Shown here: one piece after another, positions 4,919 to 57,236 of the stretch
Layout: every line of letters begins with the position of its first letter
How positions within the stretch are numbered: the first letter of the stretch is position 1
NCBI GenBank assembly: GCA_036323355.1
Contig: AP028876.1
Location: 1,674,001 to 1,738,000 of the forward strand
DNA length: 64,000 nucleotides
Direction of reading: 5' to 3'
From: Gottschalkiaceae bacterium SANA
GTDB lineage: Bacteria > Bacillota > Clostridia > Tissierellales > GPF-1
Translations under genes and position numbers: made by a program
The notes under the pieces: model-generated
What the model was told of the DNA's origin: nothing
The model's input: the letters and a program-made list of their open reading frames with translations, nothing else
The model's database searches: none

Positions 4919-4940
4919 ATAGATAAATTTAATAGAATAA

Positions 4941-5092
4941 AAGGTTCTTTCTAGGAAAGATGAAAAGGGAAAACGGTGCAAATCCGTTACAGCCCCCGCT
5001 ACTGTAAGCAGTACGAAAACCTGGATGCCATTGGGGAAACCTGAGAAGGCTGGTGAGTAGGATGATCTGTAAGTCAGGAGATCTGCCTTTTG
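4941..5092 (+). promoter_or_regulatory. cobalamin riboswitch (adenosylcobalamin aptamer)
   Basis: Contains the ordered conserved blocks of the family: AAAAGGGAAAACGGTGCAAA, CAGCCCCCGCTACTGT, GAGAAGG, and the B12 box AAGTCAGGAGATCTGCC at about 5070-5086. It lies directly upstream of the cbi operon and before an intrinsic terminator, so cobalamin binding should favour premature termination and switch off both corrin synthesis and uptake. Confidence 0.95.
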
Positions 5093-5170
5093 TTATGTAT
5101 CTCTAAACTTCGGCGGGAAGGGTGGTTTTTTGGCGCGTGCACTTACGCCAAGTTCAAACTAGAAACTTGT

Positions 5171-33549: not shown

Positions 33550-33578
33550 TTGACAATCCGCGGACAAGATGATACACT
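33550..33578 (+). promoter_or_regulatory. promoter of the T-box micropeptide transcription unit
   Basis: TTGACA (33550-33555), a 17-base spacer and TACACT (33573-33578), directly after the ABC operon. It gives the T-box leader its own transcription start near 33585. Confidence 0.75.
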
Positions 33579-33589
33579 TTCGTTAATAT

Positions 33590-33825
33590 TTAAATGGCGA
33601 TGACGAAACGCCGAAATCAGGAACTGTACAGCGAATTTGGGGAAGTGGTGGAACCCAGATCGGGGATTGATTTCGAACTCCTTTCAGAGTCTTGTCTGTG
33701 AAGCTTAGTAGTGGACAACGGAAGCCCCGTTATAGGCAAAGAAGAAATTCGGAGTGACACGAAAGTGTAACGAAGGTGGTACCGCGGGTAATGACTCGTC
33801 CTTTTATTGGACGGGTCTTTTTGTT
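33590..33825 (+). promoter_or_regulatory. T-box leader controlling the micropeptide cassette
   Basis: A complete T-box. Stem I has CGAAATCA (33612-33619) paired with TGATTTCG (33668-33675), topped by a distal hairpin ATTTGGG/CCCAGAT (33635-33641, 33654-33660) with a GTGGTGG-containing loop. The specifier region follows at once: GAACTCC, read as CTC (Leu, 33678-33680) or TCC (Ser). The T-box sequence GGTGGTACCGCG (33775-33786) pairs with the tRNA end; its T at the variable position calls for A73, which fits Leu and argues against Ser (usually G73). The terminator is GACTCGTCC/GGACGGGTC (33793-33817) plus T run. Uncharged tRNA should favour antitermination and expression of the peptides. Confidence 0.9.
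33793..33825 (+). terminator. T-box regulated terminator of the micropeptide unit
   Basis: Nine-base stem GACTCGTCC/GGACGGGTC with loop TTTTATT and a T-rich tail. Its 5' arm lies just after the T-box sequence, in the usual place for the alternative antiterminator. Confidence 0.88.
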
Positions 33826-33859
33826 TACTTGAAAATAATAGAAGGGGAGGTGAAGATCA

Positions 33860-33970
33860 ATGGAACAAGGGAAAATGGATCATTATGATCATTCAACGAT
33901 TTATGCGTACGGACAACACAATGTAAATTATTTTGGTTTGGGCGCATGTAAAGATGAGTGGGAAGACTAA
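33860..33970 (+). CDS. micropeptide 1 of a T-box controlled pair
   Basis: A 36-residue peptide with a strong ribosome binding site (GGGGAGGTGA, 6 bases before the ATG). It begins MEQGKMDHYDHST and ends with the block YAYGQ, NVNYFGLG, then A-C and KDEWED. It has one cysteine (C30), four tyrosines, an acidic C terminus, no signal peptide and no hydrophobic helix. It aligns without gaps to the second peptide: 24 of 36 identical, 20 of 22 in the C-terminal part. I do not recognise the family. It could be a RiPP-type precursor, a signalling peptide or a small protein-binding regulator; nothing adjacent encodes a maturase or exporter. Confidence 0.82.
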   Translation: MEQGKMDHYDHSTIYAYGQHNVNYFGLGACKDEWED

Positions 33971-34011
33971 AAGAAAGAGCCGCAATGGGTTAAATAGGAG
34001 GTGAAATGATC

Positions 34012-34122
34012 GTGGAAGAATATAATATGGAAAAAAACGAATATTCAGCTGTTTATGCGTATGGACAATATAATGTAAATTATTTTGGCTTGGGCACATG
34101 TAAAGACGAATGGGAGGACTAA
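34012..34122 (+). CDS. micropeptide 2 of a T-box controlled pair
   Basis: A 36-residue paralogue of micropeptide 1. The GTG at 34012 is chosen because it aligns with the ATG of the first copy (both continue as GAAxAA), gives the same length and lies 8 bases after AGGAGGTG; an in-frame ATG at 34006 would add two residues. It begins MEEYNMEKNEYSA and ends with the same YAYGQ, NVNYFGLG, T-C, KDEWED block. In the shared 72-base 3' segment nine bases differ, all transitions; five are synonymous and the rest give I/V, H/Y and A/T changes, which is strong evidence of selection on protein sequence. Confidence 0.8.
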   Translation: MEEYNMEKNEYSAVYAYGQYNVNYFGLGTCKDEWED

Positions 34123-34124
34123 AG

Positions 34125-34181
34125 ATGAAAGGTGACCTAAGCGACATTATAGGGTACTTGCAGAAAAATAAGAACCGGTGA
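34125..34181 (+). CDS. 18-residue ORF at the end of the micropeptide unit
   Basis: Encodes MKGDLSDIIGYLQKNKNR. GGAGG within the last codons of micropeptide 2 lies 6 bases before its ATG, two bases after that gene's stop. Its last codons form the 5' arm of the following terminator. It is unrelated to the two 36-residue peptides. It may be a real third peptide or chance; ribosomes finishing it would cover the terminator stem. Confidence 0.42.
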   Translation: MKGDLSDIIGYLQKNKNR

Positions 34182-34224
34182 GGGCAACCAAGGTGTTGGA
34201 CTTCGCGGGTTCTTATTTTTTTGT
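34164..34224 (+). terminator. long-stem terminator of the micropeptide unit
   Basis: A 13-bp perfect stem (34164-34176 with 34208-34220; GAACC/GGTTC at the top) closing a 31-base loop and running into T residues. The loop is unusually large for a simple terminator and can fold further (CCAA/TTGG). Confidence 0.7.
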
Positions 34225-34251: not shown

Positions 34252-35118
34252 ATGAAGCTTGAAAAACTAACAGATGGAATTGTATTTTCTCATCCAGTGG
34301 AGGAAACGGACCGCCCGATTCTCGCCGGAATACGTGGTGATGAGTTTACCCTACTTATTGATGCGGGCAATTCGAAAGCCCATTACCAAGAATTTGAAAT
34401 TGCATTGGCAGAACAGGGATTTCCACTGCGAAATGCTCTCGTTTTAACCCATTGGCATTGGGATCATATTTTTGGTGCGGCATCAGCGACAGGACCGGTT
34501 TTCGCTCATCGATTGACCCGGGAAAAAATGAAGGAATTAAAGGATTATGAATGGACTGACGAAGCGCTTGAACAGCGAGTCTTGAGCGGACTTGAAATCG
34601 AATTTTGCAGAGCGTGTCTTTTGAAGGAATTACCAAGTCCAAGAGAAGTTGTTATTCGAATTCCAGAGGTTGAAGTGGATAAACGAATGATCGTGGATCT
34701 TGGACGGACAAAGTGTGTCATAGAACATATTGGAAGTGAACATGCAGAGGACCATTTGATCATCTATTCAGAAGAAGATCGCGTACTTTTTATTGGAGAT
34801 ATTCTCTTTGTCGATATTTATGACGGGGAATGGTATTGGACACCGAGAAAGGTTGAGAGTCTGATCGATCGATTGTTGTCTTATCCGGCCGAGTGGATCG
34901 TGGCTTCTCATGTTTATCCGGTACAGTCTCGAGCAATCTTTGAAGCAGAATGCGAGTGGATTCGATGGATCGGCCAAGTCGTGGAAGCCTCGGAATCTTT
35001 GGCAATTGCTAAAGTGAGAATTGAAGTGGAAGAAAACGGACGTGTGGAAGAAGCACTTGAAATGGCAGGCTGGTTCTTTGAAGGGCTAAAAAGAGAAAAG
35101 GAAGAAAGAAACGGGTAA
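34252..35118 (+). CDS. MBL-fold metallo-hydrolase
   Basis: A 288-residue metallo-beta-lactamase-fold protein. The dinuclear metal motif is H67-W-H69-W-D71-H72 (LTHWHWDHIFGA); further ligands are likely in EHIGSEHAEDHLIIY, LFIGDILF and SHVYPVQS. The C-terminal 50 residues form a helical extension rich in Glu. The substrate is not predictable; no quorum-quenching, glyoxalase or RNase J signature stands out. AAGGAGGAG precedes the ATG. It follows the micropeptide unit but a terminator and a separate -10 lie between. Confidence 0.9.
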   Translation: MKLEKLTDGIVFSHPVEETDRPILAGIRGDEFTLLIDAGNSKAHYQEFEIALAEQGFPLRNALVLTHWHWDHIFGAASATGPVFAHRLTREKMKELKDYEWTDEALEQRVLSGLEIEFCRACLLKELPSPREVVIRIPEVEVDKRMIVDLGRTKCVIEHIGSEHAEDHLIIYSEEDRVLFIGDILFVDIYDGEWYWTPRKVESLIDRLLSYPAEWIVASHVYPVQSRAIFEAECEWIRWIGQVVEASESLAIAKVRIEVEENGRVEEALEMAGWFFEGLKREKEERNG

Positions 35119-56946: not shown

Positions 56947-56959
56947 AGCTTCAATTAGA

Positions 56960-57236
56960 AAAGCAATGAAGGGACGAGTAAAGATTGGATGCCTCTAGAG
57001 AGGGTGGGATGCTGGAAACCACCTAGGCCTATAGTTTTGAAAACTAACCTGGAGCTGGATCAAAGACCTTATGACAGGTGAAAACCTGCGACAGGTGCTA
57101 GCCTGTGCGAGGTAATGATTCCCGTTTGGACACGTTACGTCTTTTGAGGAAATAGCAGTTTTTTTGTTATTTCGAATTAGGGTGGTACCACGTGATGCAT
57201 ACCTCTCGTCCCTATTAAGGACGAGGGGTTTTTTTA
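56960..57236 (+). promoter_or_regulatory. threonyl T-box leader
   Basis: A T-box riboswitch filling the 339-base gap before thrS. Stem I has a GGTGG/CCACC distal hairpin; the specifier reads ACT (Thr, 57043-57045) after GAAA. The T-box sequence GGGTGGTACCACG is at about 57178-57191. The terminator CCTCTCGTCC/GGACGAGGGG (57202-57228) ends in seven T. Uncharged tRNA-Thr should promote read-through into thrS. Confidence 0.93.
57202..57236 (+). terminator. T-box regulated terminator before thrS
   Basis: Ten-base stem with loop CTATTAA-type apex and a T run, 30 bases before the thrS start codon. Confidence 0.9.

Follow-up and report, generated by a model that had tools for sequence, protein, structure and literature searches.

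T-boxes are known to feed synthetases, biosynthesis genes and transporters, and very few regulators. The closest described system is the anti-TRAP (rtpA) unit of Bacillus subtilis; anti-TRAP has zinc-binding cysteines. Ribosome attenuators with leader peptides are known in the ilv, leu and his types. According to a published account, uncharged tRNA permits read-through of the T-box (PMC7430163). In the anti-TRAP unit, as outlined in that account and in a 2008 survey, a T-box that senses a single uncharged tRNA, tRNA-Trp, controls a small inhibitor protein whose action is on amino-acid metabolism (PMC7430163, PMC2494555). The survey counted T-boxes before 54 genes of unknown function, and the regulator that it named was anti-TRAP (PMC2494555).

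The locus described here also places small products behind a T-box, namely two copies of a micropeptide (peptide A) and a shorter one (peptide B). A literature search by title and start of abstract, with most subscription journals outside its coverage, returned no T-box unit devoted to micropeptides. Judged from sequence, the unit is real, recurring and undescribed in the literature searched, and its regulatory input is predictable.

The genome (G000) consists of one contig and measures 3.49 Mb; the window, that is, the whole stretch of 64,000 nt that was analyzed, covers its positions 1,674,001-1,738,000. The features of the unit are listed in Table 1.

Table 1. Positions in the window of the parts of the T-box unit and of the gene behind it
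Feature	Position	Strand	Basis
Promoter-like site, TTGACA-17-TACACT, TG before second hexamer	33550..33578	+	Pattern scan; TTGACA identical in three species of genus
T-box leader, RF00230	33591..33806	+	98.6 bits vs gathering score 93; full length, model 1-219
Specifier codon CUC (Leu)	33678..33680	+	Codon lies six bases upstream of GAG, a spacing checked on genome's other T-boxes
T-box sequence GGTGGTACCGCG	33775..33786	+	Conserved across three species of genus
T-box terminator stem-loop	33793..33817	+	Terminator scan; fold -15.8 kcal/mol, z -5.2
Peptide A, copy 1, 36 aa	33860..33970	+	Homologues in 11 genomes; selection on core
Peptide A, copy 2, 38 aa from ATG (36 aa from in-frame GTG at 34012)	34006..34122	+	Homologues in 11 genomes; selection on core
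Peptide B, 18 aa, enters terminator stem	34125..34181	+	Equivalent ORF in 10/11 units; weak codon signal in genus
Final terminator, then T run	34164..34222	+	Fold -27.3 kcal/mol, z -5.7
MBL-fold gene, next long same-strand ORF after unit	34252-35118		

A preliminary description had proposed a complete transcription unit of fewer than 700 bases, and all of its parts were located. The promoter match was weak by itself, since the scan expects 1.8 matches by chance and found 2. The leader, described as a full T-box, was matched by RF00230 over the whole model and above the gathering score. Two ORFs of 36 residues had been described; the first has this length, and the second has it only when read from the internal GTG. 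The 18-residue ORF and the final terminator were both recovered, the latter by its fold; it was absent from the output of a simple terminator scan. The Leu specifier, the entry of the 18-aa ORF into the terminator stem and the recurrence well outside the genus went beyond that description.

The genome contained 24 T-boxes at E up to 0.001, with 22 over the Rfam cut-off. Codons six bases before the Stem I GAG were listed for all 24, and where there were several candidates, the one near position 81-92 was taken. With gene names assigned by eye, the chosen specifier fitted the following gene in at least 15 of the 24 (asnS, valS, cysK, pheS, leuA, metG, trpB, a proline permease gene, a second asnS-like gene, serS, ileS, aspS, leuS, thrS and argS). 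The specifier spacing differed in the trpS and tyrS T-boxes, and some other T-boxes gave no clear answer. In the window T-box, CUC was the sole candidate, the same codon as in the leuA and leuS T-boxes.

Two further regulatory RNAs were seen in the window. One was a second T-box (56957-57216, 100.1 bits, specifier ACU) that precedes a thrS-like gene, and the other was a cobalamin riboswitch (4925-5104, 128.6 bits).

The unit was present in both other species of the genus examined (DAOUQF010000001 of MAG CSMAG_119 and JABXKS010000063 of MAG GPF-1), with 83% identity over the 701-base query. Both units contained a T-box (115.7 and 106.1 bits), a tandem A pair, one B and a terminator. The promoter was matched by script in the window and in JABXKS010000063 (G002), and not in G001. 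In G002 the upstream ABC ATPase gene was cut down to its last codons, and the unit was intact. The unit is not adjacent to leu genes in this genus.

Within the genus, the variable sites in the A core (the last 23 codons) were distributed over the three codon positions as 1/1/12 and 2/2/10, and dN/dS was 0.03 and 0.08. The same changes read in shifted frames were mostly nonsynonymous. This pattern indicated that the A core is under purifying selection within the genus. The corresponding values for B were pS 0.44 and pN 0.13, with variable sites of 4/3/8, which hinted weakly at selection at the protein level.

Iterated profile searches found 16 copies of A in 11 genomes; these represent eight genera and six families, all in a single class and from at least two of its orders. 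These searches used the peptide only, and T-boxes were looked for afterwards. They were steered by earlier hits, the profiles being rebuilt with new members. A single-sequence search of 100 relatives gave clear matches in the genus only. Genome G021 (locus L042), at E 0.49 in that search, had a 36-aa ORF behind a 108.1-bit T-box with the specifier CTC, then a terminator, the unit facing leuB. Rebuilt profiles added G034 and G090, then a tandem pair in G065, and also G166, which lies outside the order. The search of 13 relatives of G166 yielded a tandem A pair in G1004, plus G1010 and G357. In the final order-level search, A was found in 7 of 247 genomes; among 10 further genomes with matches at E 0.07-0.3, none had a T-box motif nearby.

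Broader searches were made as well. With an early profile, from before G166 was known, 391 genomes of the class gave no T-box-linked match except the window genome, and the same was true of 398 genomes of the phylum searched with a profile that predated G166. Plasmids, queried with one A peptide, and viral contigs gave no matches. In the profile search that added G034 and G090, 30 loci, from about 90 rows of matches, were scanned for a T-box; so were the loci retrieved in the class, phylum and order-level searches and in those that added G065, G166 and the relatives of G166. Among the loci scanned, an upstream T-box motif on the right strand was found only at the units reported here.

Several matches were set aside. 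At L077 the T-box motif lay behind the match and not upstream, and it was dropped as chance. The weak small-ORF matches L055, L064 and L066 lacked a T-box and were dropped. Weak matches also recurred in ORFs some 1,100 aa long and were judged to be chance; one of these ORFs (L030) looks by eye like a penicillin-binding protein.

The preliminary description had proposed, as a check, to ask whether relatives of the C-terminal block of A recur behind T-boxes. A T-box was found upstream of A in 10 of the 11 genomes, and the nine units other than that of the window scored 103.9-129.8 bits, all over the gathering threshold (G065, 103.9; G090, 116.8; G166, 114.4; G1004, 105.4; G1010, 122.9; G357, 129.8). 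The possibility, raised there, that A had no homologues anywhere was excluded by these 11 genomes. A promoter upstream of the T-box was matched by script in six of the ten T-boxed units (window, G002, G021, G065, G090 and G1010). In G1010, the T-box is separated from A by an ORF that resembles, by eye, an IS200-type transposase (L171 903-1358).

The exception was G034, in which no T-box was found. A TTGACA-17-TAAAAT site leads there into a short leader, and A lies beside leuB as in G021. Since A is kept in G034 without a T-box, T-box control appears not to be indispensable. The locus retains the promoter, A, B and the terminator (L075 354-450, strand -), and may be either a natural unswitched version or an assembly fault.

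The gene served by the window T-box was considered next to the other T-boxes of the genome. For each of the 24, the longest ORF with its start no more than 450 nt downstream was taken. It started at +149 or nearer in 22 of them; for the window T-box it was the MBL-fold gene, at +445. The other exception was a cysE-like gene at +402, the leader of which is lengthened by tandem repeats. In this leader, between a Cys T-box and the gene, a 103-base repeat occurs four times in tandem with 99% matches (L006 1061-1468, G000:C1 near 2,533,000).

The MBL-fold gene is the next long ORF on the same strand and is kept in all three species of the genus, as might be expected if it were the real target of the T-box and the small ORFs were passengers in a long leader. 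We hold this to be very improbable. A strong terminator lies between the unit and the gene, an extended -10-like site (TGATATACT/TGATATAAT, by eye) stands directly before the gene, and in the other genera the unit does not have this gene behind it. Read-through to it, which the preliminary description had named as an outcome that would count against its proposal, is thus unlikely. The pairing of T-box and A, on the other hand, recurred in seven of the eight genera, with neighbours that differ or are convergent. These results bore out the proposal that the T-box serves only micropeptides: by sequence criteria the layout is real, and control of the micropeptides alone is supported.

The specifiers of all ten T-boxed units were either CUC (Leu) or AUC (Ile). 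CTC was found in the three units of the window genus, G021 and G357, and ATC in G065, G090, G166, G1004 and G1010. A tree was built from 36 T-box sequences, with the window T-box entered twice (once under its own name and once as L018). In it, the T-boxes of six units (G021, G065, G090, G166, G1004 and G1010) formed one clade with a support of 0.997. Five of these six, the Ile-type T-boxes (L131, L076, L165, L174 and L171), had the insertion CTAGGTTTGNTNGAAC in common, which, even with two mismatches allowed, was absent from all 24 T-boxes of G000. From the clade and the common insertion, the cassette in these genera looks to have been inherited as a unit, with the switch between Ile and Leu inside the clade. 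The T-boxes of the window genus fell outside this clade, and their grouping with the leuA T-box was unsupported (0.116).

The terminator stem (AAGAATCTATT...AATAGATTCTT) was nearly the same in G021, G034, G065, G090 and G1010 (L042, L075, L131, L076 and L171). These belong to three families, and such likeness is unusual for a terminator. The stem of the window genus was different from the AAGAATCTATT type.

The near identity of the AAGAATCTATT stem in these five genomes, together with a predicted transcript of a few hundred bases and a strong end hairpin, would fit an RNA effector, that is, a T-box-controlled small RNA, perhaps of dual function, whose terminator region pairs with target mRNAs and whose peptides are secondary. 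This is distinctly unlikely in our view, because A changes at third codon positions, a protein profile recognizes it across six families, and the stem of the window genus differs.

The 16 copies of A were 32-60 aa long. Each began with a variable, charged stretch and carried the motif N-[YHF]-F-G-x-G close to its C-terminus. No match to A was obtained in NCBIfam at E up to 1. Pfam gave one match in one member, below its cut-off, and PDB gave one match at E 0.86, so that no family was assigned from either. The AlphaFold model of A was of low confidence (pLDDT 54.5), and the structure was uninformative. The tail was also considered as a mimic of LeuD, as N-x-F-G-x-G resembles the NFGCG loop of that protein. 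This was rejected, as the profile A9 gave 1.9 bits for LeuD of G021 and 0.3 bits for LeuD of G000, which is noise level; three A copies in the same test set gave 60-66 bits.

The shortness of A, its tandem copies in 5 of the 11 genomes and its conserved tail behind a variable N-terminus may also suggest that A is a precursor from which an exported or modified peptide (RiPP or signal) is made. We regard such a precursor as very unlikely. When the flanks read were inspected by eye, no modification enzyme, protease or exporter was recognized next to the unit, nor was a hydrophobic signal sequence seen by eye in A. Moreover, the conserved part is the tail and not a leader, and Cys is not conserved.

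At the same place behind A, an ORF equivalent to B was clear in 10 of the 11 units, for example MEEDIDLIINT, MEDDSDIIVLV, MEEIDIIIKV, MESDIDINLIDVNET, MEDEIIHIIT and MEIDIT. In G034 and G090, an alternative short reading at this position is also possible. In all ten units folded, the stop codon of B was in the terminator stem or within two bases of it.

The compositions of the two peptides were counted on one copy per genus, from eight genera for A and seven for B (the doubtful B of G357 was left out), against long ORFs at loci of three of the six families (f1, f3 and f19). Ile, Leu and Val accounted for 28 of the 309 residues of A, only 3 of them Ile, where the background fraction was 0.25 (p 8e-13), and Ile alone for 19 of the 69 residues of B, where it was 0.086 (p 4e-6); these p-values overstate the case, because residues of homologous peptides were treated as independent.

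An Ile-rich B that stops within the terminator stem or right beside it would also be expected if A and B were cis leader peptides and B set the read-through downstream; the unit would then combine a T-box with a ribosome-sensing attenuator. In the window, G090, G166, G1004 and G1010, the unit is indeed followed by a gene or riboswitch on its own strand. However, the gene behind the unit varies and is convergent in G021, G065 and G357, and A is poor in branched-chain residues and conserved at the protein level. We therefore consider this fairly unlikely.

In two genomes the unit lay next to leucine genes. It was tail to tail with leuBDCA in G021, facing leuB, and tail to tail with leuA-leuB in G065, facing the leuB that lies behind leuA. 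The leuA genes of G000, G021 and G065 have a T-box with CUC; in the latter two genomes this T-box lies in the neighbourhood of the unit but is distinct from the T-box of the unit itself. A leuA match over the TIGR00973 cut-off was present in 28 of 100 relatives, namely in 7 of 7 genomes with A against 21 of 93 without recognized A, an association that is suggestive only, because five genera are covered. Weaker matches to the leuA profile, likely from related enzymes, were present in 91 of the 100. In G000, two copies each of apparent ilvC and ilvB lie behind leuACDB (L163 10334-18084, G000:C1).

The reading we prefer, to which we give somewhat better than an even chance, is that the unit is an autonomous switch for branched-chain amino-acid starvation, in which a cytosolic micropeptide acts in trans in a manner that is anti-TRAP-like but unrelated to anti-TRAP. 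A lack of Leu, or of Ile in some relatives, would cause read-through of the T-box and expression of the micropeptides only. A would be made during the shortage; since it contains almost no Ile and few Leu and Val, it could be translated in the very shortage that would induce it. It would be soluble and unmodified, would bind a protein via its C-terminal N-[YHF]-F-G-x-G tail and would adjust the synthesis or regulation of branched-chain amino acids. Action in trans is suggested by the tail, which stays while the neighbours change, and by the unit, which survives the reduction of the ABC gene in G002 and has other neighbours elsewhere.

B would probably act in cis. Its Ile-rich codons come just before a stop at the terminator stem, so that the progress of the ribosome through B should affect the 3' hairpin, through either RNA end stability or read-through. 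Put together, the two peptides might form a two-stage sensor. The tRNA-Leu or tRNA-Ile switch would release an effector A that is nearly free of the missing residues, and B, which is written with them, would sense the shortage again at the terminator. The output would be a peptide regulator of branched-chain metabolism in several families of Clostridia. We put this forward tentatively, as possible rather than probable.

A recurring T-box unit that serves only micropeptides would mean that starvation is signalled through a peptide so small that gene calling usually misses it. The unit defines a new peptide family, for which an inducer can be predicted in each species. The way in which A and B differ in composition may provide a rule for finding similar peptides behind other amino-acid switches. 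If our reading is true, an amino-acid shortage is answered here by a micropeptide rather than an enzyme.

Three known systems are comparable. The anti-TRAP unit has a Trp specifier, whereas the A units have CUC or AUC (Leu or Ile). No Cys is invariant in the 16 A copies of 32-60 aa, in contrast to the cysteines of anti-TRAP, and the A units have no family match but do have tandem copies and a second, shorter ORF. The T-box-controlled leuA and leu operons share the input CUC with the unit; their output is an enzyme operon, whereas that of the unit would be a peptide. With the ribosome attenuators, B shares the enrichment in the sensed amino acid and the placement against a terminator. On the other hand, the unit has no constant gene behind its terminator, and it is preceded by a T-box and by an A that is poor in branched-chain residues.
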